Below, piece after piece: positions 6,221-21,278 of a stretch of 32,385 nt of DNA (position 1 is the stretch's first letter; each line of letters opens with the position of its first letter). The translations under genes were made by a program, and so were the position numbers. The notes beneath the pieces are model-generated. The model searched no databases. It was given only the letters and a program-made list of their open reading frames with translations, and was not told the origin of the DNA. Source of the DNA: a virus; IMG/VR virus record IMGVR_UViG_3300008459_000209, positions 1 through 32,385 of that record, one strand, 5' to 3'.

Positions 6221-6727
6221 ATGGCTGCTATTTACATAGATAATCTAATAAAACCTAGAGAAATAAATTCTCCTAGTAGTTATCCTTCAAAAGAAACTGT
6301 ACAAAATAAATTTGTATATACAGATTTAAAATTAGATTTAAAAGAAGCCAAAAATTTAGGAAACGGATTAAATCCTGCTATTTCCAATGATATTGAGGCT
6401 TCTTATGACTTAGAGGCAATAAGAAACTCTCTTTATAATATTTTTACAACAAGAAAGGGGCAAAAATTATTAAATCCTCTTTTTGGAGGTTCTTTAGATC
6501 AACATTTATTTGAAAATATCACAGAATTTAAAGCTAAAATATTGGGAGACAGCATCGTAGACTCTGTTTCAAGATTTGAAAATAGAGTGCGAGTAGATTC
6601 TGTACAAGTAATGCCAATGTATGATGAAAATCAATATTACGTAATATTTAATTATACTATATTAAATATAAAAGATATTAAAAAATTTGAAATATTATTT
6701 AATGCAAATAACATAACATTTATATGA
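6221..6727 (+). CDS. 25: Baseplate wedge protein gp25 (lysozyme-like fold)
   Basis: 168 residues; the family core is LEAIRNSLYNIFTTRKGQK followed by LLNPLFGGSLDQHLFENI, the hallmark of gp25/GpW-type baseplate wedge proteins. The second half (VDSVSRFENRVRVDSVQVMP and the paired strands after it) is the usual beta portion. T4 gp25 is 132 residues; the extra length here is an N-terminal extension. In the T4 baseplate gp25 joins the gp6 dimer and links the wedge to the sheath initiator. The next gene is gp6, and the two overlap by ATGA, indicating coupled translation. Confidence 0.93.
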   Translation: MAAIYIDNLIKPREINSPSSYPSKETVQNKFVYTDLKLDLKEAKNLGNGLNPAISNDIEASYDLEAIRNSLYNIFTTRKGQKLLNPLFGGSLDQHLFENITEFKAKILGDSIVDSVSRFENRVRVDSVQVMPMYDENQYYVIFNYTILNIKDIKKFEILFNANNITFI

Positions 6728-8520
6728 GCGATATAGCCCCATTTAACAAAAATTCTTACATTGCCTTTGATGGTGTCAGTATTCGTGACATCATTGTAAA
6801 TCGTCTTAATCAAGGAAAGGTATTTACCGATCAAAATTATCAAGGATCTAACTTATCTGCTCTTATTGATGTTTTAAGTTATACTTTTAATACTTTATTA
6901 TATTATTTAAACAAAACTTCTTCGGAGAGTATGTTTTCAGAAGCACAAATATATGAAAACATGAATAGAATAGTAAAGCTTTTGAATTATAGACCCATTG
7001 GTAGATTAGGACAAAATGTTCCATTCAGATTGTTTGCAAATTCTAACATACCAAGAGGAAATTATTTTGTTCCTAGATATAGTTATGTAAATGTCGGAGG
7101 AACACAATATTCTATAAACAAAGACATGGTATTCTCAAAGTTATTTGATGGAACTGCCGAAATAAATGATGTCAATAATAGCTATCTCTTATATCAAGGA
7201 AGTTTCAAAGAATATCCAATATATACAGCATCTGGTATTGATAATGAAGTTTTATTTTTATCATTAGGAGATTCTGTAAAAATAGATCACTTTAATATTT
7301 TTGTATATGTAAAAGAAAAAAATTCTGACAAGTGGGATGAATGGACAAACGTTTCTGACATATTTTTATATACATCAACAGACAATGTATATACTACAAG
7401 ATTCAATCAGAATTTAAGATATGAAATCCAATTTGGAAATGGTATAACAGGAAAAAAAATAAACGAAGGAGATCAAATAGCAGTTTATTATTTACAAATA
7501 GATGATACTACTCCTTCTTTGGGACAAGGTGCATTGGATAATTCTAAATTTATTAATTTTAATAGTACTAGATACAATGAAATATTGTCTTCTATTTCTT
7601 TTAATTTTAATTCAAAAATAGACACAACACAATTAAATTACATTTCAATTACCAATGATTATCCTTCAAATTCATATACTGATTATGAAAATGTAGATAA
7701 TATAAGAAACAATGCCCCACAAGCATTTACTGCTCAACAAAGACTTGTTACTGCATTGGACTATGAAGTTTATATGAGATCTAATTTTCCTAATATCATT
7801 ACAGATAATAGAGTTGTTAGTAACGAAGATTATATGAGAGGCCATATGAGATATTTGTATAACATAGGATTGAATAATCCACAAATTCAAAATCAAGTTT
7901 TATTCAATCAAGTTAAATTTTCAAATTCTTGTAATTTCAATAATTTATACATATATACAATACCAAATAATAATTCACAAAACTTTTTATCTCCACCTCA
8001 AAAAGAAATAATTATAAATAGCTTGTCACCCAATAAAACAATAGCAGCAAATCCCGTTTTAATAGATCCTATATTTATGAATTTGGATTTTTATATAAAA
8101 CCTCCATTTGGAAATGCTAGTTTTGATGATCTATCTAATTGCAAATTAAGAATAGTTAAAAGCAAATATACTAGAAGAGCATCTTCTAGTATATTACTAG
8201 AAATACAAAATTTATTTAAAAATACCTTTAATCATACCGCATCAAAACTAGGAGATTTAATAAACATAAATCAATTAAATTCTGATATATTGAATATGGA
8301 TGGTGTGGATTATATAGAAACATATAGATCAGATTCTGATACTTCCATTAATGGATTGTCATTAATGATGTGGAATGATTTATATCCTGAATTAGATACT
8401 AGGGTATATACACAAAATGTTAAATTAGATTTCTTCCAATATCCTTTATTTTATAACATAGCAAATATATCTTCTAGAATAGAAATAGTAGAAGACGTAA
8501 CATCAGTTTCAAAAATATAA
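6724..8520 (+). CDS. 6: Baseplate wedge protein gp6 (baseplate J-like)
   Basis: 598 residues (T4 gp6: 660). The N-terminus has the wedge-type opening with DIIVNRLNQGKVFTDQNYQG followed by LIDVLSYTFNTLLYYLNK and a helix pair. The central FTAQQRLVTALDYEVYMRSNFPNI segment, with its Arg-Leu-Val-T-xx-DYE pattern, is diagnostic of gp6/baseplate J proteins. In T4, gp6 forms the inner wedge ring and is the scaffold for gp25, gp53 and gp7. It overlaps the gp25 gene by 4 nt and is 4 nt ahead of the giant gene at 8525, so the three form one late operon. Confidence 0.9.
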   Translation: MSDIAPFNKNSYIAFDGVSIRDIIVNRLNQGKVFTDQNYQGSNLSALIDVLSYTFNTLLYYLNKTSSESMFSEAQIYENMNRIVKLLNYRPIGRLGQNVPFRLFANSNIPRGNYFVPRYSYVNVGGTQYSINKDMVFSKLFDGTAEINDVNNSYLLYQGSFKEYPIYTASGIDNEVLFLSLGDSVKIDHFNIFVYVKEKNSDKWDEWTNVSDIFLYTSTDNVYTTRFNQNLRYEIQFGNGITGKKINEGDQIAVYYLQIDDTTPSLGQGALDNSKFINFNSTRYNEILSSISFNFNSKIDTTQLNYISITNDYPSNSYTDYENVDNIRNNAPQAFTAQQRLVTALDYEVYMRSNFPNIITDNRVVSNEDYMRGHMRYLYNIGLNNPQIQNQVLFNQVKFSNSCNFNNLYIYTIPNNNSQNFLSPPQKEIIINSLSPNKTIAANPVLIDPIFMNLDFYIKPPFGNASFDDLSNCKLRIVKSKYTRRASSSILLEIQNLFKNTFNHTASKLGDLININQLNSDILNMDGVDYIETYRSDSDTSINGLSLMMWNDLYPELDTRVYTQNVKLDFFQYPLFYNIANISSRIEIVEDVTSVSKI

Positions 8521-8524
8521 TTAA

Positions 8525-11500
8525 ATGTCTCTTCCAATTATAATTCCCAATCAAACGTTTTCTTTATCTGCTGGTAATTATGCTGTAGACCAGATAGACA
8601 GAACAGGTACTACTCCGCTTACTTGGACTATAGTAGGATTGCCAGATGGATTGACTTTTGATTATGTAAATGGTGGATTTTATGGAACTCCTATACAAGC
8701 AGGTGTTTTTTATTCCTTTGTTGTTTTACAAAATTCCGAAGGAACAGATTCTTCTGTTGTTGAATTTAAAATAGAAGATGTATATTCAAGTTCTGTAGTT
8801 TCTTTTTCTATTTCTCCAAATAAAGGATATGCTAATTCTACTCCTTTTCAATTTGTTCCTATAATAGCAGGATCCCAAAAACCAATTTCACTTACATGGG
8901 AATTTGGTGATGGAAGTATATCAAATGAACAAAATCCTATACACATATATAAAGTTCCAGGAAAATATATTGCAAAATTACATGTACACTTTAAAGGAAA
9001 AGTTCTATCTTATAATACAGAAATATTTGTAAATCTTTTAATAAACGAATCTGTATATTTTGATTTTGTTCCTCCTCCAACATTTTCTGGACATTATAAT
9101 AGATATCCCTTTAAAGTAAATTTCACATCCTCTAAAAAAGGACCGCATTATATAGATTTAGGAGCACAATTTTCAAGATCATATCAATTACAAGATGTTG
9201 AAAATAAATGGTCATTTTTAAGACCCCATTGGAGATTTTTAGATTTGTTGGGAAACGAAATTAGTACAATTGTTCCTAAAGAGACTGAAATATATACTAC
9301 AGATTTAGGTGCAATAAATACACAAGGAACTGGATTATTTTCTGGAGTAACAGGAACTGCGGAGTTCTATTTCATTGACGATATTTATAACTATGATCTA
9401 TCCGTTAAGGACGATGCATATTCAACAGTAATTGCTACATTAAGGACAAATGAAATAAAATCAATTCATGATGGATTTCATGTCAATAATGATTTACCAG
9501 GATTTTCTAATAGTTTAGCAACTGCTTCTTGTCCGTATATGGTTTTACATAGACCAGTTGATAATGTAAACATAACCGATAATGGAAAAACATATAGTGG
9601 ATTAAAATTTGAAAATGCTCAACAACCAGTAATAATAAATACAAATTACTTAAAACCATTTCCAGAACCATTTTACTGGAAAGATGATAGTAACGAAGTT
9701 GATGTATATTATCCTAGAAAAAATGAATTTTCGCATAATTTTCCATTAGAAAATCAAAATAATGTTACTGTAAATTCAGGAGCAACTGGAATGCGTGTTG
9801 ATTTTGTCCCATTGCCAACATTTGAATGGAAAGATAAAGACAATTTAAAAACACCTGGATATTATAAAGGAAATTTCATAATACAAGACATTTTAACAGC
9901 AAATCCTATTCTTACAGCAAGTGCTGACATAACATATCCTCCACTTTCTACACAACATCATAGTCCTATTTTATGGATATCAAATCCAGAAGCGGGATTG
10001 ATGACTACTGCTCAGTATATTTTCAGAGACTCTCTTTCTGCTGCGTTTGACACTCCTAACATGAAAATAGCAGTTGTTAATAATTTTAACATGCCGATAA
10101 TAAGGAAAGTTGATTTCACTACAGATGCAATGGCTATTACTGGATTTCATGGTATTAACAGCATAGCAGCATTGCCATTACCGGCTTATCATGCATGGGC
10201 ATTAGACTCAGAATTGAATTACCTTTATAGATTAACAACAAAGGGAACTATTTTATGTGCTATTGACATAAATCAAATTATAAGAGATAATAGTTTAGGA
10301 TTTTTAACAAATGAATATGCTTCACCAGCATCTATCGTGTTGGATGGTAAACAAAACATTTGGATGACTCTTTATGATACGGTATCTACTTTAAAATTTG
10401 ATAGATTTGGAAACTTTTTGTTTGCAACTACACCTTTAAGCAGTACGGGATACATATTCCCTCCAGCACCTAATATTGAAGGTCCTTGGTATGCTCAAAA
10501 TTCATACTATGATTATGATGAATCTGAACAATATGATTGGAATACTGTAAATAATAAAGATGTAAATTTTGTAGAACCTACATACATAGATTCAGATACA
10601 AAAAACAATGTCTGGGTATCATATTCTCATTATGCTAGTGGATATTTAGTTAAATACGATTCTAATGGAGGTCTTATATATTCACACACATACCCAGTAT
10701 GTTCTTGTCCTCAATCAATAGCAATTGATGTTGATGATAATGTTTGGATTGCTCTTTCTAATAATATATGGAGTTCTAGAGAATGTACATTAGAAAAGAG
10801 ATCCTCTACTGGTACATTGTTAAGTTCATTCTACCCTATTATGGGTTTAAATCATTTAACTCTTGATTGGGATCAAAATATTTGGTTTACATTTAGTTAT
10901 AGTCATATAGGGAATATAAACACAAAGTCTGGAAGTATATTTGTTACTGATTTGTCTGGAACAGGAGTCACTAAAAATGCCTCTGATTGGTTCGATCCTT
11001 CTGATAATACCGATGAAACCGCTTTAGAGGGTATTGGATGCGATTTAAAAGGAAGAGTATATGTTATAAATTCTATAGAGAATCAAGTGTATGTTTTAGA
11101 CACAAGAACTAAGAAATTTTTAAATAAATTTTATGTGAATCCTCAAGGATTCACGTTTTATATGGATGATCAGTCATCTTCCACCAGAATGCTTGCTGAT
11201 ATTTGGGGAAAATCTTTACAAGCAAACGGAGATTGGACTGGATTGAGGTGGGTTAGAAAACATGGACACGAATTACCTTATTATACAACAGATACTTTTA
11301 CGGATTATATAACAGGATCGACTGATAAAATCAATTACATTACAAATGATATAAAATCTATAGCCAAATTAAATGAAAATTTTGATATGGCAGATTATAT
11401 GAAATCTTTAGCGTTCATGCCTTCTTTAATAGAAAGTAATGTATTATTTGATGACTTTTTAGGTTCTATAATGGGGAAATATCCATTTAGAAATGATGAT

Positions 11501-12118
11501 TTGGGTGTAAATGTTTATGAAAAAATTTCAAATTTTACAATAAACAATGCAGATGTTGATTATTGCAATATAGATCAATTAAACAGCATGGCAATGACAT
11601 TGAATGTAGATCCAAATGATCTTAACTTTAATCTTCCATTGTCTTTAAAATCTATACTGAACATATGTAGTATAAATCAATCCAGATTGTTTGGTTCTAT
11701 TTCTTTACAAGAAGATGCGTTTTCAAAAATAAACAATCAAGACGTATTAAACAGAGGAGATCTTATATCCTCTTTGTGTTATACAGTAACAGCAGGAACT
11801 CCTGTTGTTTTAAAAGATAAATCAATTAATAAATATCAAAAAATAGAAACATCTGAAATAAACAGTTGTTCTGCATATTCAATTTCAGTTTTAGCAGAAT
11901 ATATAGGACTAGGAAATAGTGATTGGGATTCTTATTACGAGTTTTATACCTTTAATCCTAGCTATGATTTAACTAATATAGAAGGCATTATAGATTGGAA
12001 TAACGATAAAACTACTATAAACAGAAATCTATCGAGTTCTAAATATTGGTACGGACAAGATGGATATCTATCATATATTTTTATATATGATTTATATAAA
12101 GGATTGGGTTTAATTTAA
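8525..12118 (+). CDS. Giant baseplate/tail protein with Ig-like, PKD and propeller-like segments; gp7 position
   Basis: 1197 residues. Residues 1-85 resemble a putative Ig (He_PIG) domain: GLPDGLTFDYVNGGFYGTP. Residues 93-170 are a PKD domain with WEFGDGS (125-131), then NPIHIYKVPGKY. A middle region of about 535-880 has propeller-type repeats with the turn motif D-x-x-N-x-(V/I)-W (near 694, 737 and 784), like NHL/Vgb lyase blades. GDWTGLRWVRK at about 901 recurs in the protein at 16701-20099. The C-terminal 230 residues are helical, including LPLSLKSILNICSINQSRLFG. Position after gp25 and gp6 and the length match T4 gp7 (1032), the wedge arm, but the surface modules are additions suited to glycan or cell-surface contact. 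The gene ends tail to tail with the minus-strand gene at a TTAA. Confidence 0.7.
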   Translation: MSLPIIIPNQTFSLSAGNYAVDQIDRTGTTPLTWTIVGLPDGLTFDYVNGGFYGTPIQAGVFYSFVVLQNSEGTDSSVVEFKIEDVYSSSVVSFSISPNKGYANSTPFQFVPIIAGSQKPISLTWEFGDGSISNEQNPIHIYKVPGKYIAKLHVHFKGKVLSYNTEIFVNLLINESVYFDFVPPPTFSGHYNRYPFKVNFTSSKKGPHYIDLGAQFSRSYQLQDVENKWSFLRPHWRFLDLLGNEISTIVPKETEIYTTDLGAINTQGTGLFSGVTGTAEFYFIDDIYNYDLSVKDDAYSTVIATLRTNEIKSIHDGFHVNNDLPGFSNSLATASCPYMVLHRPVDNVNITDNGKTYSGLKFENAQQPVIINTNYLKPFPEPFYWKDDSNEVDVYYPRKNEFSHNFPLENQNNVTVNSGATGMRVDFVPLPTFEWKDKDNLKTPGYYKGNFIIQDILTANPILTASADITYPPLSTQHHSPILWISNPEAGLMTTAQYIFRDSLSAAFDTPNMKIAVVNNFNMPIIRKVDFTTDAMAITGFHGINSIAALPLPAYHAWALDSELNYLYRLTTKGTILCAIDINQIIRDNSLGFLTNEYASPASIVLDGKQNIWMTLYDTVSTLKFDRFGNFLFATTPLSSTGYIFPPAPNIEGPWYAQNSYYDYDESEQYDWNTVNNKDVNFVEPTYIDSDTKNNVWVSYSHYASGYLVKYDSNGGLIYSHTYPVCSCPQSIAIDVDDNVWIALSNNIWSSRECTLEKRSSTGTLLSSFYPIMGLNHLTLDWDQNIWFTFSYSHIGNINTKSGSIFVTDLSGTGVTKNASDWFDPSDNTDETALEGIGCDLKGRVYVINSIENQVYVLDTRTKKFLNKFYVNPQGFTFYMDDQSSSTRMLADIWGKSLQANGDWTGLRWVRKHGHELPYYTTDTFTDYITGSTDKINYITNDIKSIAKLNENFDMADYMKSLAFMPSLIESNVLFDDFLGSIMGKYPFRNDDLGVNVYEKISNFTINNADVDYCNIDQLNSMAMTLNVDPNDLNFNLPLSLKSILNICSINQSRLFGSISLQEDAFSKINNQDVLNRGDLISSLCYTVTAGTPVVLKDKSINKYQKIETSEINSCSAYSISVLAEYIGLGNSDWDSYYEFYTFNPSYDLTNIEGIIDWNNDKTTINRNLSSSKYWYGQDGYLSYIFIYDLYKGLGLI

Positions 12119-12585
12119 GTTTTAACAGTAGATATTAAATAATTTGCTTTATTAAAAGCAGATAATATCTCTTCTATTTTATTATTAATTCCAGTCTTAG
12201 ATTGTGTTATAAATGTATTAAGTTCCAAGGAAGTTAAAATTGCTGATATTTCTTTATAAACAGAAAAATAAGTATCAATAATTCTATCAGAATCATCTCT
12301 AAATTGAGAAATGTTGTTTATGTCTAAACATTGACATTGTGATATTATTTTAGGAAAAATAATATCATTTTGTCTAACAGTTCCTATAATTTCTTCTTGA
12401 AGAGAATCAAATAAATCATCTAAATCATCATATAAATCACCTAATATGATATGAACAGGATGGTTCAATACATACCAATGAATCATTTTAATAGAAGATA
12501 ATGTCTTCAATAAAAATGATCCAAATTCTCTAGTTGTATCTAAAGAATTCGTGCTTGCTTGTGTTGTTATTATTTGTATTTCCAT
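12115..12585 (-). CDS. Ferritin-like/Dps-like four-helix protein (DUF5856-like)
   Basis: 156 residues, predicted all-helical. EFGSFLLKTLSSIKMIHWYVLNHPVHIILGDLYDDLDDLFDSL (split here by position: 20-40, then 41-62) has the Dps/ferritin-like pattern of a His on one helix (H36, with H42 and H45 next to it) and acidic residues a few turns later (D50, D53, D54). I recall similar proteins in large phages annotated as DUF5856. Metal or oxygen chemistry is possible but unproven, and the remaining Glu/His ligands of true ferritins are not obvious. It is the last gene of the fibre-cluster operon, 3 nt after the preceding stop. The upstream sequence is A-rich without a Shine-Dalgarno site. Its stop overlaps the plus-strand stop in TTAA. 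Confidence 0.55.
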   Translation of the reverse strand: MEIQIITTQASTNSLDTTREFGSFLLKTLSSIKMIHWYVLNHPVHIILGDLYDDLDDLFDSLQEEIIGTVRQNDIIFPKIISQCQCLDINNISQFRDDSDRIIDTYFSVYKEISAILTSLELNTFITQSKTGINNKIEEILSAFNKANYLISTVKT

Positions 12586-12588
12586 AAT

Positions 12589-13035
12589 TTATTTTCTTTT
12601 ATATATTTCTGTTTTAATTAAAAAATCTCCAAGTATGGTATCACCGCTTGATAGAAGCTTATAATTGTTGGTATCGGAAATATCAACGTCATCTGTTTTT
12701 TTAATCTCTTCTTCATTTTTTAATTCAACATTTTCTTCACTTTTAAAAGAATTTAATCCCAACTTATCATTAGTAAAATTAACAGTATAACCAAAATCCT
12801 CCAATTCTTTTTTTAATGATTTTAATAAATCTTCTGTGTTTTTAAAAAATAATCTCCAAAAAGGTATTGGAAATATAATATTCAACGCATTTACTCTTAC
12901 GGCACATTGTTGACACGGTTCTGTTTTTTTAGTAATTATTTTAGTTATCCATCCTATTAATTTACTGTGCAAAAAACAAGCTACCAAATCACCCAATCCG
13001 CGAGAATATTTAATTTTTAAATTTGGATCTTTCAT
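12589..13035 (-). CDS. Unknown protein with CxxC motif
   Basis: 148 residues, family not recognised. The N-terminal half is distinctive: RGLGDLVACFLHSKLIGWI, then PCQQCAVRVNALN and FPIPFWRLFF. One Cys-x-x-Cys pair plus a nearby Arg could bind metal or form a redox pair, but no second pair is present. The C-terminal half is acidic and Lys-rich and looks poorly ordered. It overlaps the upstream gene by ATGA and is followed closely by the ferritin-like gene, so it is translated as part of the fibre-cluster operon. I cannot assign a function. Confidence 0.6.
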   Translation of the reverse strand: MKDPNLKIKYSRGLGDLVACFLHSKLIGWITKIITKKTEPCQQCAVRVNALNIIFPIPFWRLFFKNTEDLLKSLKKELEDFGYTVNFTNDKLGLNSFKSEENVELKNEEEIKKTDDVDISDTNNYKLLSSGDTILGDFLIKTEIYKRK

Positions 13036-13406
13036 AATACGCTAGAAATTCTTTTATTAAACTTATCAACAGCAGTTAAAATACAATCAGACATATCATA
13101 AAAATCATCATCTGCTAAATTGTCATTATTTTGTATTATTTTTCTTAATTGTTTCATTATAGTAATTAATTGAACATTTAAAGGATATTTTTTATCTATA
13201 TATTCAAAAGTGTGTCGTTCTTCTTGTATTTCTTCTATAGAAGAACCGATTGGAAGCATTTCTCCAGTTTCATAATCACCTTTCCACTCCCAATTTGAAA
13301 TATTTGTTTTTTCGGATGGTACTTCTCTTCTTAGAATAGGAGAATTGGGTGGTATTTCATCACTATATCCTATAAATTGTTTTTTATCGTTAAAAATGGC
13401 AAACAT
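13032..13406 (-). CDS. Small protein, possibly fibre-associated
   Basis: 124 residues, not recognised with certainty. It begins MFAIFNDKKQFIGYSDEIPP, a short beta-hairpin style opening seen in small proteins encoded next to phage tail fibres, continues with NWEWKGDYETGEM, and ends in a helical half (NVQLITIMKQLRKII and the helix after it). No catalytic motif is visible. An exact TATAAATA lies 9 nt before its ATG, so it probably heads a three-gene transcript with the CxxC protein and the ferritin-like protein. A chaperone or fibre-linked role is only suggested by location. Confidence 0.6.
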   Translation of the reverse strand: MFAIFNDKKQFIGYSDEIPPNSPILRREVPSEKTNISNWEWKGDYETGEMLPIGSSIEEIQEERHTFEYIDKKYPLNVQLITIMKQLRKIIQNNDNLADDDFYDMSDCILTAVDKFNKRISSVL

Positions 13407-13415
13407 TATAAATAA

Positions 13416-13423
13416 TATTTATA
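13416..13423 (-). promoter_or_regulatory. TATAAATA late-type box, 9 nt before the start at 13406
   Basis: Exact match to the T4 late consensus on the minus strand. With a start site about 6 nt downstream, the leader would be about 3 nt. No Shine-Dalgarno sequence is present between it and the ATG. Confidence 0.5.
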
Positions 13424-13446
13424 AGATATTATGAATATGCAAAGAA

Positions 13447-14982
13447 TTAACTCTTATATGGTCCAAGCAAGTCTCCAAATGTAGCTCCTATACGATTTGA
13501 ACTTAATGTTTGTATTAAAGACAATCCAATTACACAATAACCAGGGGCTCCACCAAAAGGTGGTAGTGAAATACCTCTAGAATCGAATCCTCCAGAATTT
13601 TGTCCTTTTTGTCCTAGTGTTCCTCCAGGTGTTCCGTTTGTATAACCAAATCCACCATTTCCGGGTATGGTAAGGCTTCCATCGTTTCCATTAGTTCCGC
13701 TTTGCGTTGTGAAAGAATAGGAAGACAATGTAGAAACATTCGATCCTCCTACGCCATAATACCCCTTCGTATTTCCTGCTCCTCCACCGCCTCCACCGCC
13801 ACCTTTTAGTATAGGTTTTGTTCCATTACTATTTAATGGAAATTTTATAGAATAAAAACTATTATCTTTATATGAGGCTAATCCTCCACCACCACCACCG
13901 CCTCCTCCTGCTATTGTTCCATCATTTAAAAACATTTTAACAGGATAATTAAGAACTATCGCATTTCCACCCGCTGTTCCGTTATTTGTACTATTTAAAG
14001 GAATTCCTAATGATTGACCATAACCACCGTTTCCTCCATATCCAACTATTGTTCCATAATTTAAAATATTTATATCATCTCCATGTTTAAATCCATTTAT
14101 ACTAAATGCTTCTCTATTTAAAACTTCGCTACCAATAACTACACTAGAATTTATTATAACTTTTATGTCAGTATTTCCTGCTAGATATTTTCCGGTTCCA
14201 ATAACATGATAATACAAATCAAAATTAAATTGACTATCTGTTATTGTTATTTCTATAAATGGTCTTTTCTTTGTAGTGTTTACTACTATTCTTATTGGTG
14301 TTTCTTTTTCTACATCGTCTTGTTGTGTTGTATCTTGATCTCCATAAACAACTCCTAAAAACACCCAGTTACCCCTTTGAACCTCAAATTTATATATATT
14401 ACCTTTTAATAAATGAATATCTTTTTTTAAAAATTTAGCATACATTTCTCTAATATTAAAAGAAAATTCTGGACTTGTTTGTATGTCAAATAAATAACTA
14501 TTATCTAAAGGATCTACAGGAATATTATATAAAAAAAATGTTAAATTTACATTTGTATTTTCATTGAAATCTAAAGGATTGAAGTTAGAATTTAAATAAC
14601 TTTTAGCAACAGATATTAATTTATCGTTTCTTTGATTTATACTAGGACAACTTATTGCTATATTAGCATATGTAGATATGTTTAATGGATAGTGAACGGA
14701 GAATGTATGTTTAGACCAATAAGAACTTAATATATTAACAGTAGCATATGCCATATTAAATCTTAATGGATCTTCAAATTGATTTGTTGCTTGTATAAAA
14801 AACGGAATATTTTCTTTTAAATCATCAAAAATAGCTTGATAATTGTCAGAATTAATAGTAAGCATGCTGGATAAATTACAAATTTCAGTATCTAATTTTA
14901 AAAGATTAAAATTATGTTTTGCCGCAGAATCGCCTACACATTCGTTTTTAGTTATTTTTTTAATTGGAATATCAGTACTCAT
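13447..14982 (-). CDS. Tail fibre/adhesin with polyglycine-rich tip
   Basis: 511 residues in two parts. The first 190 share a module with the two upstream proteins: a GDS-x4-(N)-x-N start (NECVGDSAAKHNFNLLKLD), a helical and Trp-rich part (SSYWSKHTFSVHYP) and SYLNSNFNPLDFNENTNVNLTFFLYN. The last third is glycine-rich with two runs of eight to nine Gly (near residues 354 and 393) and many GNGG/GGxGG turns. Such sequences form polyglycine-II helix bundles in gp38-type phage adhesins, so this is a strong receptor-binding tip candidate. The start overlaps the upstream stop by ATGA. The gene ends before a promoter-bearing gap. Confidence 0.75.
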   Translation of the reverse strand: MSTDIPIKKITKNECVGDSAAKHNFNLLKLDTEICNLSSMLTINSDNYQAIFDDLKENIPFFIQATNQFEDPLRFNMAYATVNILSSYWSKHTFSVHYPLNISTYANIAISCPSINQRNDKLISVAKSYLNSNFNPLDFNENTNVNLTFFLYNIPVDPLDNSYLFDIQTSPEFSFNIREMYAKFLKKDIHLLKGNIYKFEVQRGNWVFLGVVYGDQDTTQQDDVEKETPIRIVVNTTKKRPFIEITITDSQFNFDLYYHVIGTGKYLAGNTDIKVIINSSVVIGSEVLNREAFSINGFKHGDDINILNYGTIVGYGGNGGYGQSLGIPLNSTNNGTAGGNAIVLNYPVKMFLNDGTIAGGGGGGGGGLASYKDNSFYSIKFPLNSNGTKPILKGGGGGGGGAGNTKGYYGVGGSNVSTLSSYSFTTQSGTNGNDGSLTIPGNGGFGYTNGTPGGTLGQKGQNSGGFDSRGISLPPFGGAPGYCVIGLSLIQTLSSNRIGATFGDLLGPYKS

Positions 14983-15926
14983 TTTGTTAAAAACCTTTCA
15001 AATGTCCATGCACAATTTTTAATTGAAAATACAACTGCAATTAAATCGTCAACTTCATTTCTATCTTGAAAAAACATTTCTACATTAGCCTTTATATATC
15101 CATATGCTGTTTGTGCATTTGATGTAATGGTAGTAGTTGTATTTGCTGGAGTCCATGATATTGTTTTATATAATATTCTTTTAAAGTTTGAAATGACATT
15201 GAATGCTGTTTCCGTCCATGTTGGAATTGTTGCTGTAGATACATTAGATGGAGCAGTAAGTGTTAATGATGGCTGTGGTTGTGTCCTTACATAAGGAGGA
15301 AGATCATAAAAACAAGTTACATTTTTTGATTGTGAGCATGTTGCAGACGAACCCTTACAATCAAAATCTCCATTACTACAATATACATATCCTGTATAAA
15401 AATTTTTACAAGTAATAGTAATTGTTTTATTTGCAGTTGTACATAATGTATAATCTGTTAATAGTTGATTTTCATTAACGTATGTTCCATATGCCCATCT
15501 ATGCGCATATACTATAAGTTTTTGATTTTCTACATAATTATTAATGGGTATTCCATTTTTTATAGTTATTTCTGGAAAATAATTAGAAGCCCATGTCTGT
15601 AGAGAATTTACTATATCACTTTTAGATATGTCTATATTAAATATAGAAGGGAAAAAAATAGTTATTGGTTTCAACCAACCCGCAGAATTTGTTTCTACTA
15701 TAGTACATACATTTAATAGAGTAGATGAATGTGTTTGCGAAATTGTTGTAATTTGTTTTAAAGTGTTTTTAAAATCTTTATAATAATTCACAACAGGTGT
15801 CCAGTAATCATTTGCTCTTTGTGTTACTTCTTTTGTTAACAAATCTAAAGTTTCATAATTTAAATTTATAGAACTCAAGGAATCGCCTATAGAAGAAGTT
15901 GGTTGTATATATATAATATCGTTCAT
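14979..15926 (-). CDS. Tail fibre-like protein with Cys-rich segment
   Basis: 315 residues. The N-terminus (SIGDSLSSINLNYETLDLL, residues about 11-29) is the shared module start of this cluster, followed by Ser/Thr-rich helical repeats with Trp (NDYWTPVVNYYKDF, SAGWLKPITIFFPSI). The middle, about 180-225, is Cys-rich: CTTANKTITITC, then YCSNGDFDCKGSSATCS and VTCFYD, at least eight Cys in some 50 residues. The C-terminus returns to the FKRILYKTISW style. It sits in a row of three related genes linked by ATGA overlaps and is best read as one of several fibre or baseplate-appendage proteins. Metal binding or disulfides in the Cys region are inference. Confidence 0.65.
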   Translation of the reverse strand: MNDIIYIQPTSSIGDSLSSINLNYETLDLLTKEVTQRANDYWTPVVNYYKDFKNTLKQITTISQTHSSTLLNVCTIVETNSAGWLKPITIFFPSIFNIDISKSDIVNSLQTWASNYFPEITIKNGIPINNYVENQKLIVYAHRWAYGTYVNENQLLTDYTLCTTANKTITITCKNFYTGYVYCSNGDFDCKGSSATCSQSKNVTCFYDLPPYVRTQPQPSLTLTAPSNVSTATIPTWTETAFNVISNFKRILYKTISWTPANTTTTITSNAQTAYGYIKANVEMFFQDRNEVDDLIAVVFSIKNCAWTFERFLTK

Positions 15927-16699
15927 ATATTAATCCAAACATTGTTTATGTTTTTAAATTTCATATTTATAGTTCTACATGTTGTTTTTTCTATGACATC
16001 TCTATTCAATCCTATAGATAATTGTTTGCTTCCTCCACCTTGACATGCTACTGGCACAGAAGTAGCACTAGAATTTATAATGGTACATTTATCATATGCA
16101 TTGGTACATGGTCCCCATCCAGCCAGTCCTCCGTGGTGATTACATCCTCTGGACGGTTTAGGACAACCAGAACAAGAAAGAATACCTCCACCACCATTTG
16201 GTATGCATGGTTCGTAAAGAGATCTATTAAACTTAAAACTAAATGATGTTTCTTGATTTAAATATATCAAAACATTTACCATTTGATCGTCAGTGTAATA
16301 TATTGGATTGAAATTTACGTCTAACCAATTTTTTATTAAAGAAATTTGTTGAATCGATGTTTTAGAATACCAAACAGTAAAGTCTATCATCTGTGGATAA
16401 TATAATTGTATATGCTTATTCCAAGAAGAACTTAACTTACTAACAGTTGTTGAAAGATCTATCCAAGCAGCACTAAATTGTTTAACATTACTAGCAGTAG
16501 TTAACCATCTAGCACTATATTGACTAACTAATGTATATATGTCATACCAATTGTTTTGTTGAATATACAAAGAACTTATAGATTCACTTAAAGTTAAAAA
16601 GTTATAATTTATAATATCCAATGAATCTTTTAAACAGTATCTTTGATCTATTAAATAGACATTCGAACATGTAGGTGTTATTTTTTCAAAAGTAATCAT
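15923..16699 (-). CDS. Tail fibre-like protein with Gly/Cys-rich C-terminus
   Basis: 258 residues. It starts with the same module (CLKDSLDIINYNFLTLSESIS), followed by Trp-containing repeats about 20 residues apart (QNNWYDIYTLVSQYSARWLT, FSAAWIDL, LSSSWNKHIQLYYP) and SLIKNWLDVNFNPIYYTDDQMVNVLIYLN. That last block aligns with the SYLNSNFNPLDFNENTNVNLTFFLYN block of the protein at 13447. The C-terminal 80 residues are rich in Gly and Cys (CIPNGGGGILSCSGCPKPSRGC, then NHHGG, later VACQGGG). It overlaps its downstream sister by ATGA and follows the giant LamG gene by 1 nt. Role in adsorption is inferred from paralogy and place. Confidence 0.65.
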   Translation of the reverse strand: MITFEKITPTCSNVYLIDQRYCLKDSLDIINYNFLTLSESISSLYIQQNNWYDIYTLVSQYSARWLTTASNVKQFSAAWIDLSTTVSKLSSSWNKHIQLYYPQMIDFTVWYSKTSIQQISLIKNWLDVNFNPIYYTDDQMVNVLIYLNQETSFSFKFNRSLYEPCIPNGGGGILSCSGCPKPSRGCNHHGGLAGWGPCTNAYDKCTIINSSATSVPVACQGGGSKQLSIGLNRDVIEKTTCRTINMKFKNINNVWINI

Positions 16700-16700
16700 A

Positions 16701-19700
16701 TTATATCCAATTTATTTTATATAAAGAAGTCTCTGCTGGTTTAATTTTATTAATACAATCTTTTATAGTGGTTTCTATAAGATATTTTAAATCATCATTT
16801 ATGTTTAAATTATGTATATTAATATTAAAATAATTACTCTTACTTCCTGGTAATTGATTTTTATACCAATATTCAATTTCTTCTATAAAATTTCTATCTC
16901 CTACGTTAATATTCCATTTTAAATATTTTCTAGGATCTGCAAGTTCAGAAGAGAAGTATATAGCTTCTATTTCACCTACACTTAATGCTTTTGAATATAA
17001 TCTCAAATCGGCAATATTTCCTATAAATTTATTAACATCATCCAATCCAATAAGATCGTTTAATGTGGTGTTTTTGATACTTGCTGCTCCTAATAATAAT
17101 GAAGATCTATAATCATAATACAATTCATATAAATTAGGTTCGAAAGATACCTTGCCTACATTAATGGTATCAATATAAAAATCAGCAATCCCTCTAAATG
17201 AATCAAAAACAAAAGAAAAATGATGCCAACCGTGAGGTAAAGAGCTTGTTGTAAATGATAAAGAAAGTAATTGAGGATCTCTTCCGTCTGGTTGTGCTAT
17301 TTTAAATTTCCAAGAAAGTGTTGTTTTTCTTGGAATAAATTTTCTAACAAACTGATATCCAGTAAAATCACCTTTTGCATTGAATTTTAATTGATCAAGA
17401 TTTTCAACATTTAATGTTCTTAAATCTGATCTATATTCCATGCTACCAAGACTATCTATGGCATATATTTCATTATCTCTTGTATCTACTAATATTAAAA
17501 CATCTTCAAATTGCTCTTTTCTATTACAAACATCAGAAGCAATTAAAGGTGTTCTTACAAAATCTATATATCTAAATACTAAATTATCATCACAAGGATC
17601 TAATGGATTAGAAACTCTTCTTCCTATTCTAAAAGAAAAATCTACAGTATCAGTTATGCTATTTATTCTAGAAATTCTGTCTTGTTCATGTGATATCCAT
17701 AAATTATTATTAAAATCCACTGATATTTGTTGTGTAAACCCTACAGTTGCATAAAATATTTTATTTTTATATAAACTACCTCCTATTACTTCCCATAAAA
17801 CATTGTTATTGTCTATTACCGAAACATATCCGCTTGAAAATATAACTTCATCATCAATTAATGTTATTTCTATTCTTTTTGTACTAAATGGAACATCAAC
17901 AGAAAGAAGATATTGCATATTAGAATCAAATACACTATACATTTTTTTTGTATCATCATATAAATAAAATCTTTTTTGTGAATCTATTTCTATTTGATTT
18001 ATGTTTTCTATAAAATAACTAATATTAGTTACTTGTAATATCAACGAATTTACTTGATTAAATTTTGATGCTGTTTTATTTAAAACATCAAAAACCCAAT
18101 AGGTGAAATCTGGTAATCTAAATATATAACTATATTCAGTATCATATCCATATAAAGTATTAGGAATTAATAAAGGAACTTCACTTAATTTTTTAAACTT
18201 ATAATTTAAAGTATATGCAGTAGCAGAAATTGAATTTGTAATTGTTAATACGGGAATACCATTTCCATTTGAATTTATTAATCCAAATCCACTTTCAAAA
18301 TAGTTTCCAAATATTTGTTCACCATTGATATTAGACCAATCATCAACGTTTAACCACATAGAAGCTGTCAATCTTTGTTTTTGTAATAAAGAATCGTTTG
18401 CAAGAAATAATGCATGATTGTTTCCTTTTAATTTCCAATAATTTCCTATAAAAGTATCAGGATCTGCAAAATATACCAATCCATCATTTCTAAAGTCAGA
18501 ATTATCTAAAAGAGGAGAAGACAACCATTCAGTTATACTCAAAACATTGGCTCCTTCGTTTATAGTAGAATTTTTATCTAAAAAGTTTAAGAAAATTTTA
18601 CTATTATCAATTCCACCTCGTTCATAACTATATAAAACACCTGGTTCAAAATATGTTTCTGAAGGAACGTCGAATGTATATTCATTAGTTGGATATATTC
18701 TTTCATTATATACTAATGCTTTGGCTGTCAATGCTTGATCTAATGTGTAATATGCAGCATTATAGTATCTATCCATCCATATTTTATCTCCAGTATTTGT
18801 ACCAGAAAGCCATGAGCATAACCATGTATTATCAAATTTTTTAATACTCTTCGGCTGAGATATTCCTTTTATTATTTCTTCATAATCCCCTCTATACATA
18901 CACAATCTATCAGAAGTAAATGGTATTTCTCCTGCAATCGCACCATCTTCTATAAGACCAGAGGATTGTAGGGATATTCTCTTAGAAGTAGGTGGATAAT
19001 AAAAAATATTTTCAGAATCTTCATTAAAGGTAAATTCTTTAGTGTTTGACTGATATCCTAAATAAACTCTATCATATCCCTTAGCTTGATTAGTTCCTGT
19101 ATATATTTTATTATATGTTCTTTTTATTGAGGGACATGCTGTTAATATCGGATTAGCTGTTGAATATGTGTATTCAGATGTTTGATAATTTTTAAGACCG
19201 TGTATTTGTAAATCATAAAAAGCTTCATCTTGGGTTTTCTTTATATTTTCTATAGGAAACATTCCTAAATAATTTTGAGAGTATAAATTAGACATTGAGA
19301 ATTCCTCATTTATACCTAAAGGATTTGGAATTTGAGTAGGATTTACATCATAAGAAACTAAAAAACTGTCTGAAGTGCTTTTTTCTTTTTCTATTTCAAA
19401 TTGTTTATATGAAACAAAATTAAAAAAATAAGATATTGGTACATTATTTGATAATGCTATTGGGATAACTACTATACTATAATTCGTACTATCTACATAC
19501 AAAATTCTGCCATAATAACTATTATATTCAAATATGGCAATAGAACTAACACCTAATATATAGTCAAATATTTGTGTATCAGATCTAGGATGTACTTCGG
19601 TTTTAAAAAGAACAGTAGCAGATGTTCCAATTCTATTTAATGTTAAAAAATCTCCCTCATTGTTTTGAATTGAAAGCGTATCATCAGAATTGAATATAAA

Positions 19701-20099
19701 AGAAAATATGTCATTATTTGAATAATCGTTACTTCTACTATCTTTTAAGTAAAATGAACTATTATTATCATTTAAATCTGTTCTATATTGTTTTATTACA
19801 GTATTATTCCTAGACAATATAGGGGATTCTATTTTTGTTAACGGTATTTCAATATTAGGAATTTCTTTATTTTCTAAAAAGTAAGAATTATATATAAAAT
19901 TAGTTAAAAACATTCCTGTTTTCTTATTAATAGAAAAGTCCATTGCATTTTTAAGAAAATTATGCAATTTAAAGGACATCCCATTAGAACACAACACATG
20001 AGTATTTTTAACTTTAAAGTTATCACCAACTACGTTAAAGTCTACTGGTCTCCAAGACGCAGTACCTAATGTATTTTGTATATTAAAAACAGCTGACAT
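16701..20099 (-). CDS. Giant tail/adsorption protein with LamG-like and propeller-like domains
   Basis: 1132 residues. LamG/concanavalin-like features appear twice: LTASMWLNVDDWSN and EQIFGNYFESGFGL at about 575-605, and LSWKFKIAQ, then LPHGWHHFSFVFDSFRG and ADFYIDTINVGK at about 923-985, the classic LamG strand pattern. Between them lies a propeller-like region with ISVDFNNNLWISHEQDRI, and GDFTGYQFVRKF at about 909, which matches GDWTGLRWVRK of the giant protein at 8525. The propeller may be inserted between two LamG domains or within one. LamG and propeller modules commonly bind glycans, so a host-contact role is reasonable. A TCTAAATA box lies 6 nt before its ATG, behind a terminator. Confidence 0.65.
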   Translation of the reverse strand: MSAVFNIQNTLGTASWRPVDFNVVGDNFKVKNTHVLCSNGMSFKLHNFLKNAMDFSINKKTGMFLTNFIYNSYFLENKEIPNIEIPLTKIESPILSRNNTVIKQYRTDLNDNNSSFYLKDSRSNDYSNNDIFSFIFNSDDTLSIQNNEGDFLTLNRIGTSATVLFKTEVHPRSDTQIFDYILGVSSIAIFEYNSYYGRILYVDSTNYSIVVIPIALSNNVPISYFFNFVSYKQFEIEKEKSTSDSFLVSYDVNPTQIPNPLGINEEFSMSNLYSQNYLGMFPIENIKKTQDEAFYDLQIHGLKNYQTSEYTYSTANPILTACPSIKRTYNKIYTGTNQAKGYDRVYLGYQSNTKEFTFNEDSENIFYYPPTSKRISLQSSGLIEDGAIAGEIPFTSDRLCMYRGDYEEIIKGISQPKSIKKFDNTWLCSWLSGTNTGDKIWMDRYYNAAYYTLDQALTAKALVYNERIYPTNEYTFDVPSETYFEPGVLYSYERGGIDNSKIFLNFLDKNSTINEGANVLSITEWLSSPLLDNSDFRNDGLVYFADPDTFIGNYWKLKGNNHALFLANDSLLQKQRLTASMWLNVDDWSNINGEQIFGNYFESGFGLINSNGNGIPVLTITNSISATAYTLNYKFKKLSEVPLLIPNTLYGYDTEYSYIFRLPDFTYWVFDVLNKTASKFNQVNSLILQVTNISYFIENINQIEIDSQKRFYLYDDTKKMYSVFDSNMQYLLSVDVPFSTKRIEITLIDDEVIFSSGYVSVIDNNNVLWEVIGGSLYKNKIFYATVGFTQQISVDFNNNLWISHEQDRISRINSITDTVDFSFRIGRRVSNPLDPCDDNLVFRYIDFVRTPLIASDVCNRKEQFEDVLILVDTRDNEIYAIDSLGSMEYRSDLRTLNVENLDQLKFNAKGDFTGYQFVRKFIPRKTTLSWKFKIAQPDGRDPQLLSLSFTTSSLPHGWHHFSFVFDSFRGIADFYIDTINVGKVSFEPNLYELYYDYRSSLLLGAASIKNTTLNDLIGLDDVNKFIGNIADLRLYSKALSVGEIEAIYFSSELADPRKYLKWNINVGDRNFIEEIEYWYKNQLPGSKSNYFNINIHNLNINDDLKYLIETTIKDCINKIKPAETSLYKINWI

Positions 20100-20105
20100 T
20101 ACATA

Positions 20106-20113
20106 TATTTAGA
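20106..20113 (-). promoter_or_regulatory. Late-type box TCTAAATA, 6 nt before the giant LamG gene
   Basis: 7-of-8 match to TATAAATA on the minus strand, with 6 nt to the ATG at 20099. It lies just after a hairpin that would end the preceding transcript, a compact terminator-promoter arrangement. Confidence 0.42.
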
Positions 20114-20114
20114 C

Positions 20115-20141
20115 AAAAAACCCTATTATTGTAGGAGTTTT
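20115..20141 (-). terminator. Intrinsic terminator after the 59-residue gene
   Basis: On the minus strand, AAAAC-T-CCTA pairs with TAGGGTTTT around a 6-nt loop, leaving one bulged T, and continues into a run of six T. It starts 2 nt after the TAA of the small gene and precedes the promoter-like box of the giant gene. Confidence 0.6.
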
Positions 20142-20143
20142 TA

Positions 20144-20323
20144 TTAAAAAGTTGGAGTAACCGTTGGAGTAACCGTTGGAGTAACGGTAGATGTTGCTGT
20201 TGGTGTTGGTATTGGAAGAGATTCTAATACGGAAACACGATCAAAAAGCTCTTGAAAGTTATCTGTTATCGTATTTCTTACGTCTAAAAGTCGATCTCCG
20301 TTATTAAAATTTCTTAATGCCAT
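20144..20323 (-). CDS. 59-residue fibre-related mini-protein with Thr-Pro repeats
   Basis: A short gene filling the gap between two large ones. Residues 1-36 (FNNGDRLLDVRNTITDNFQEL and a short helix) resemble the GDSL-x-x-(I)N-x-NF-x-x-L module start of the three fibre proteins at 13447-16699. The rest is Pro/Thr-rich: PTPTATSTVTP then TVTPTVTPTF, from a 12-bp unit repeated in tandem. A GATAAATA box lies 7 nt before the ATG and a terminator follows, so it looks like a complete, separately expressed unit. It could be a linker or plug that uses the same docking module, or the remnant of a fibre gene that lost its body. Function is inferred only. Confidence 0.65.
   Translation of the reverse strand: MALRNFNNGDRLLDVRNTITDNFQELFDRVSVLESLPIPTPTATSTVTPTVTPTVTPTF
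20153..20188. repeat. 12-bp tandem repeat encoding Thr-Pro-Thr-Val
   Basis: GTTGGAGTAACC-type units (TGGAGTAACCGT) occur about three times in tandem, the last ending as AACGGTAG. On the minus strand they encode repeated TVTP. Exact tandem DNA repeats suggest length change by slippage, which would alter a stalk-like Thr-Pro segment. Confidence 0.8.
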
Positions 20324-20330
20324 ATAATCC

Positions 20331-20338
20331 TATTTATC
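20331..20338 (-). promoter_or_regulatory. Late-type box GATAAATA before the 59-residue gene
   Basis: 7-of-8 match to the late consensus on the minus strand, with 7 nt (GGATTAT) to the ATG at 20323. It lies in the 37-bp gap downstream of the stop of the preceding gene. Confidence 0.42.
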
Positions 20339-20360
20339 TTGAACAGATTACTTATTAAAG

Positions 20361-21278
20361 CTATTCCGTCCAAATGAAATTATCATTCCAAATATTTAAA
20401 TCATTCCAAAAATCAACAACAGGTGATGGTAATGGAATCGAAGATGGACTAAATCCAGCAATAATAGATCCTGTAGTATAATAATAAAAAGTAAAAAATT
20501 CGTTTTTTATCGTGGATAAATTTATGCTATTAGTGATATACACATCAGATGAATCTGATGAAATGTCATGTGTTGTTGTTATTCCTAAATTACAATTAAA
20601 ATAATTGTTTATATCGTAATTATTTGTAAAAGTAACTCCATTTAATCCATTGATATATAAAGTAAATATACTTATGTTTTCATCTATTATAAAATAATAT
20701 TGTTTATATGGATCGACATCAATAATGAATCCATCATAATTTATATTAATGTAAGTAGGTGGTATATTTTCTACTAATCCTATGGATATACCAGATACAC
20801 AAGGTCTTACTTCTTGTGTGAATCCTCTCCAAGAACTGACTCTATACATAATAGAATCTCTTGTAAGAAGTCCATATCCAGCTTCATTTTCGACAATAAC
20901 ATCTAAATTATTTTCAGTTTGAATTGGTTTTTTTTGTAATTCATAAAAAACGGCATCTGGAACATCAAACATCAATACATTTTCGTTTCTTACCTCAAAA
21001 AATGGTATAGATACTCCACAAAAAGGAGGATTGTACGGTGATAGTTTGGGATAATTTCCAAATGGATTGTAACACGCATAACTTAAACTATTAAATATAG
21101 TAACATCAGATGCACTTAAATATACATTTCTAATTTCATAAAAACTTTTTCCCGAAACTATAATTTTTTTTAATTGTTCCGATGAAATAGAAGGCAGCAA
21201 AACTGAAATTTTATAAGGAAATACATTCTGAGCACTTGGCTTGGCATAAATAAGAACTCTTGCGTCGGGTTGTTTCAT
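20361..21278 (-). CDS. Putative virion protein with IPT/TIG-like segment
   Basis: 305 residues, almost entirely beta by appearance. Residues about 50-145 (FYEIRNVYLSASDVTIFNSL, then MFDVPDAVF and LDVIVENEAGYGLLTRDS) have the strand and turn pattern of IPT/TIG Ig-like domains found in phage virion proteins. The last part repeats FWNDLNIWNDNFIW at the C-terminus. I do not recognise a specific gene. It is 2 nt downstream of the gp15-like tail stabiliser and upstream of the fibre cluster, so a tail or neck role is plausible. No signal peptide or catalytic motif is visible. Confidence 0.6.
   Translation of the reverse strand: MKQPDARVLIYAKPSAQNVFPYKISVLLPSISSEQLKKIIVSGKSFYEIRNVYLSASDVTIFNSLSYACYNPFGNYPKLSPYNPPFCGVSIPFFEVRNENVLMFDVPDAVFYELQKKPIQTENNLDVIVENEAGYGLLTRDSIMYRVSSWRGFTQEVRPCVSGISIGLVENIPPTYININYDGFIIDVDPYKQYYFIIDENISIFTLYINGLNGVTFTNNYDINNYFNCNLGITTTHDISSDSSDVYITNSINLSTIKNEFFTFYYYTTGSIIAGFSPSSIPLPSPVVDFWNDLNIWNDNFIWTE

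Follow-up and report, generated by a model that had tools for sequence, protein, structure and literature searches.

Three adjacent genes on the minus strand of a 32,385-nucleotide viral DNA stretch (hereafter, the window; IMG/VR record IMGVR_UViG_3300008459_000209) encode proteins that sequence comparison identifies as paralogues with an N-terminal module of common descent. We consider it fairly probable that this module is a divergent virion anchor of the T4 gp9/gp10 type that carries exchangeable ends, in an uncultured T4-like myovirus. The three genes, designated A, B and C, form an array; the ends attached to the module are swapped between phages, and such arrays are linked to baseplate and head genes. 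From these data we infer a trimeric protein, a docking site and receptor binding.

The core of the window is of the T4 type and lies on the plus strand (gp21, gp22, gp23, gp44, gp25 and gp6), and its minus-strand block includes the tail sheath stabiliser (gp3) and a helicase. The capsid protein is ~65% identical to the capsid proteins of several contigs that bear the motif described below, vs only ~34% for its best cultured relatives, the cyanomyoviruses. The viral contigs compared are labelled L002-L053, of which L013 (225 kb) and L014 (52 kb) were used for detailed comparison of the array. The relevant features of the window are the following.

6221 to 8520, plus strand: gp25 and gp6 baseplate wedge genes (phrog_261, E 3e-32; phrog_219, E 4e-40)
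12115 to 12585 and 12589 to 13035: Dps-like gene (phrog_858, E 1e-8) and Cys-containing unknown
13447 to 14982, minus strand: gene C, 511 aa, module with an appended tip (foreign profile, E 2e-8; orthologues)
13450 to 14346, minus strand: Gly-rich tip of C, residues 213-511, tail-fibre adhesin-like (PHROG matches)
14347 to 14982, minus strand: shared module of C, residues 1-212
14979 to 15926, minus strand: gene B, 315 aa, module with a Cys-rich insert (foreign profile; closing F/W strand as in A and C)
roughly 15117 to 15443, minus strand: Cys-rich insert of B, about residues 162-270
15923 to 16699, minus strand: gene A, 258 aa, module with a Cys-rich insert (foreign-motif profile, E 6e-10; L013 and L014 orthologues)
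16025 to 16213, minus strand: Cys-rich stretch inserted into A's knob, residues 163-225 (nine-module alignment; low-confidence loop in the model)
16562 to 16654, minus strand: docking peptide of A, residues 16-46, VYLIDQRYCLKDSLDIINYNFLTLSESISSL
16701 to 20099, minus strand: protein of 1132 aa, LamG and propeller-like (Pfam Laminin_G_3, E 4e-8)
20144 to 20323, minus strand: ORF of 59 aa, truncated stub of a 245-aa gene with a weakly motif-like N-terminus

The modules of A (15923), B (14979) and C (13447) extend over ~200 residues and consist of an N-terminal peptide of approximate consensus GDSLxxINxNFxxLD, followed by a predicted helix and then by a small knob that ends in F..N..W.F. By blastp, C matches A with an E-value of 1e-8 and B matches A with 0.02. 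A profile of 49 motifs from other phages only, from which window sequences were left out to avoid circularity, recovered exactly A (E 6e-10), B (E 1.8e-7) and C (E 2e-8) among 404 six-frame window ORFs, with the next ORF at the noise level of 0.06; the collection of the 49 motifs had itself relied on a profile in which the window modules were included, and had been begun from a DNA motif pattern. Profile comparison, which an earlier sequence-only reading of this DNA had proposed as a check, thus detects similarity for all three proteins. No PHROG or Pfam family was found for the window modules.

Nine sequences, including the L013 and L014 orthologues, align from the start to the closing F..N..W.F strand, and the alignment used for modelling, of ten rows, is invariant at N33, S90, W93, P102, F248 and W255 (A numbering). 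In both A (163-225) and B (~162-270) the Cys-rich stretch precedes the closing strand, and is therefore an insert within the module. Only C runs on past this strand, for ~300 residues with 21% Gly. Several details of the sequence-only reading change: of the diverging C-termini that it described, the Gly-rich end of C stands, but the Cys-rich parts of B and A are internal in the alignment. Its FNPxxF/Y...VN block is common to C (511 aa) and A (258 aa), which are not the two longest proteins (B has 315 aa), and the spacing after D-S in its pattern is x3 rather than x4, with H-N-F-N-L in C.

It is highly improbable that the shared pattern is convergent and reflects low-complexity N-terminal coiled-coil starts that look alike. 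The motif is short, a look-alike could arise in Asn-rich proteins encoded by an AT-rich genome, and the 59-residue ORF is a case of such weak mimicry; however, similarity continues for ~200 residues, in which columns of N, S, W, P, F and W are invariant, and profile E-values of 1e-7 to 1e-10 stand against noise at 0.06. For A, B and C, the foreign profile and the whole-module alignments refute convergence.

The order of genes is the same in L013 and L014: the orthologue of the 1132-aa gene, then A, B and C, followed by orthologues of 12589 and 12115; L013 additionally has an orthologue of 13032 after the array. Orthologues were identified for A (L013:8404-9192, 35% identity; L014:8312-9184, 31%), B (L013:9174-10004; L014:9166-9960) and C (L013:10001-10699; L014:9962-11191). 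A and B are conserved over their full length in the three phages, including the Cys-rich insert. In the window, C ends in a Gly-rich stretch; its L014 counterpart (409 aa) has an unrelated end, and its L013 counterpart (232 aa) has none. L013 instead has a Gly-rich stretch matching phrog_10745 on another protein, of 1265 aa, which is encoded upstream of the orthologue of the 1132-aa gene. In the module tree, B (100/98) and C (99/99) form clades across phages, thus the paralogues probably predate the split of these phages; the finer branching order is unsure because of long branches. In the window, B overlaps A start-to-stop at 15923-15926, and C overlaps B at 14979-14982, which suggests coupled translation of the three genes.

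The 1132-aa LamG gene just upstream of A is a syntenic marker of the array: it has orthologues beside the arrays in L013 and L014, and matches near module genes in L038, L040, L045 and L046. Its product and the protein encoded at 8525-12118 have a weakly similar stretch (residues ~770-920, E about 1e-3). The latter is a very large protein with PKD and Ig domains, located directly after gp6, as is gp7 in T4; it was rejected as a gp7 homologue by sequence, with no support found against T4 gp7. In each of the three phages, the array is followed by a Dps/starvation-protein-like gene and by a conserved unknown that contains Cys, and in L013 a run of sugar-transferase-like and methyltransferase-like genes, recognized by eye from the proteins, occupies 11982-20479 after the array.

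The different ends of C in the three phages, together with the varied domains fused to the module in relatives, bear out the idea of a shared N-terminal module with exchangeable ends. The accompanying idea, that all members dock at one place, is not supported: A, B and C are separate orthologue groups whose order is kept in three phages, which suggests, on the analogy of T4 gp9/gp10, that they would occupy distinct, non-interchangeable positions and are not alternative ends for one socket.

The tip of C matches the profiles phrog_11439 (tail fibre, E 1.6e-20), phrog_10745 (E 3e-16) and phrog_2056 (tail fibre/host specificity, E 1e-5), and no solved structure was matched by its sequence. Judging from this domain content, C is the best candidate adhesin, and receptor binding is plausible. 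Two further variants of the tip were observed: a 17-residue in-frame deletion in a near-identical phage (L007:3-857), and a sequence that diverges after residue ~405 close to the contig end (L006:5192-6430).

A narrower version of the anchor interpretation, which overlaps it, has A and B as purely structural baseplate proteins, spacers like gp9, gp10 or gp11, with C as the only receptor-binding protein and no receptor-binding array in the window. We give this a little under an even chance. It fits the conservation of A and B along their whole length in three phages, where the end of C is swapped or missing, and T4 gp9 and gp10 themselves are connectors, not receptor binders; in other phages, however, the peptide carries adhesin-type ends on several genes per array.

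The sequence-only reading had counted four genes with the N-terminal module. Three of them, 13447, 14979 and 15923, are confirmed by the foreign profile and by orthologues; the 20144 ORF was rejected as a fourth member, since it scores E 0.09 against the foreign profile and is a truncated gene. Its spacing is GD-x8-I-T-D-NF, vs GD-x4-IN-x-NF in A, B and C, and its N-terminus is closer to the gp9/gp10 spacing than to the array motif, at a non-significant E of 0.45; a pattern made for this N-terminus found no relatives. L002 has 98.6% identity to the window in this region (L002:1051-2833), and its reading frame from the same start codon encodes a 245-aa protein (L002:1051-1788) with a motif-like N-terminus, Thr-Pro repeats, and a C-terminal domain with 51% identity to the 20361 protein (residues 177-300 of the latter). 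Next come a gene of 337 residues and the 1132-aa gene. Relative to L002, the window lacks about 1.6 kb there. The same right-hand junction as in the window is present in L006:1-40, and L004 has the undeleted sequence, thus both forms seem to exist in the population. A terminator-like hairpin follows the 59-aa stub in the window.

A degenerate DNA motif pattern identified 27 stretches in viral contigs and had no match in bacterial or archaeal genome contigs. In a whole-contig profile search, the peptide was present in 19 of 19 IMG/VR contigs, with 1-7 copies each and 69 in total; these contigs were picked for holding the motif, and they include some that are closely related to one another. At least two module copies are carried by 18 of the 19 other contigs, and L015 has seven consecutive module genes. 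Like A, B and C, the sets in these 18 contigs were classed as modular arrays, taken as two or more neighbouring genes with a homologous N-terminus and non-homologous ends. Among 49 module proteins scanned against Pfam and PHROG, Phage Tail Collar (PF07484) was found in five and Kelch in three; pectate-lyase-like, Rax2 propeller and Gly_rich_2 domains are single cases, and many tail-fibre and collar PHROGs were matched. Among the 49 foreign rows, the docking peptide has three conserved cysteines, with frequencies of 94%, 86% and 73% in those rows that are aligned at the position concerned. Searches of 50,697 cultured phage records by tblastn returned nothing for A, B, C or the 1132-aa protein, and against cultured phages the 45-aa motif consensus had no match better than E 0.5; its best match, Vibrio phage vB_pir03, was rejected, as the motif is absent there.

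Module genes adjoin the gp25/gp6 baseplate wedge genes in L028, L029, L042 and L043, and are located near gp21-23 in L031, L033, L039 and L053. The module could instead anchor head fibres or capsid decorations, so that the array would display proteins on the capsid and not on the tail. This is the main alternative for the site of attachment, because several arrays have gp23, and not baseplate genes, as their neighbour: in L031, L033, L035, L039 and L053, module genes are found a short way downstream of gp23, and a head-type virion structural protein (phrog_1645) follows the L015 array. We nevertheless regard it as unlikely, given that the window array is located among the gp6, gp25 and gp3 genes, that ends of the collar, tail-fibre and pectate-lyase-like kinds typically belong to tails, and that the motif resembles those of the baseplate proteins gp9 and gp10.

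The structure model of A contains an alpha/beta knob formed by residues 96-162 and ~230-258 (pLDDT mostly 80-93); the Cys-rich stretch is predicted as a low-confidence loop between knob strands, and the preceding helix is also of low confidence. Outside the knob of A the models are weak, with mean pLDDT of 53 for A and 32 for C, and the model of C was discarded as unusable. No significant Foldseek match to the knob was found in PDB or BFVD, and a search of the module against PDB sequences gave coiled-coil noise only.

The anchor interpretation draws on a comparison with T4 gp9 and gp10, two paralogous baseplate proteins with one N-terminal segment in common (TGDxLxxGGxKINxNFxELY) and different ends. 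Aligned by hhalign, the set of 49 motifs and the gp9/gp10 N-termini show a resemblance over only 18 columns, with a four-residue gap (P 2e-5, probability 77%), and the score of 24.9 was reached in none of 300 column shuffles (at most 14.5). Beyond these ~18 columns, the window proteins have no match to the full domain PF07880 (T4_gp9_10_N, 175 positions): none was found at E<=10 in the window record and seven other motif-bearing contigs, which include contigs of 218 and 225 kb that carry gp25 and may be incomplete, whereas T4 and two cyanophages, used as controls, match above the cut-off. The knob sequence also differs, and there are 3-7 paralogues per phage rather than two. In T4, the N-terminal domain of gp9 binds gp7, and the N-terminal 200 residues of gp10 are homologous to gp9 (PMC3004832). 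Based on the hhalign resemblance and the gp9/gp10 precedent, the plug is most likely a divergent anchor of this type.

Two other known systems are comparable, and a literature search for arrays of this kind found nothing closer than gp9/gp10 and these two. In CBA120 (TSP1-4) and the RaK2 tail-fibre complex, receptor-binding proteins assemble via conserved T4-baseplate-like N-terminal domains (PMC8825819, PMC10253068). Several proteins are thus joined through conserved N-terminal domains there as well, but in those phages a single anchor protein holds the rest in a branched complex, whereas each gene described here has its own anchor peptide. The module proteins showed no detected similarity to gp10-like XD domains. 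The second comparison is with Gly-rich tail-fibre adhesins (phrog_11439, phrog_2056, Gly_rich_2), whose tail-fibre/host-specificity profiles are matched by the tip of C, although this tip is fused to an anchor module. Adhesins of this type are S16 gp38-like.

Under the anchor interpretation, A, B and C would be paralogous virion proteins, each opening with the docking peptide GDSLxxINxNFxxLD. This peptide may lead into a helix that probably forms a trimeric coiled coil, with the small alpha/beta knob after it. If the proteins behave like gp9, the peptide would insert at the outer rim of the baseplate wedge (gp6 and a gp7-like protein), so that the knob and whatever domain comes after it would face outward. 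A and B, with fixed Cys-rich loops in the knob, probably fill structural positions of their own, and C would present an exchangeable adhesin end. In related phages, duplication appears to have raised the plug to as many as seven copies, to which collar fibres, a pectate-lyase-like domain or propellers are fused, and the outcome would be a modular adsorption array.

More tentatively, and with considerable doubt, it can be speculated that a compact plug peptide with three conserved cysteines replaced gp9/gp10, and that such phages carry 3-7 plugs with exchangeable adhesins and polysaccharide-degrading ends. It is equally doubtful, as part of this replacement, that the cysteines provide a disulfide lock to the baseplate and that the virion bears a crown of several receptor-binding proteins, not one fibre type.

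The plug provides a sequence tag for virion surface proteins in T4-like phages that are known here only from metagenomes, and a search with it retrieves candidate receptor-binding genes for which there is no other annotation. If the link to gp9/gp10 is true, a baseplate segment would have shrunk to a short anchor, and copies of it would now make up a modular set for host recognition.
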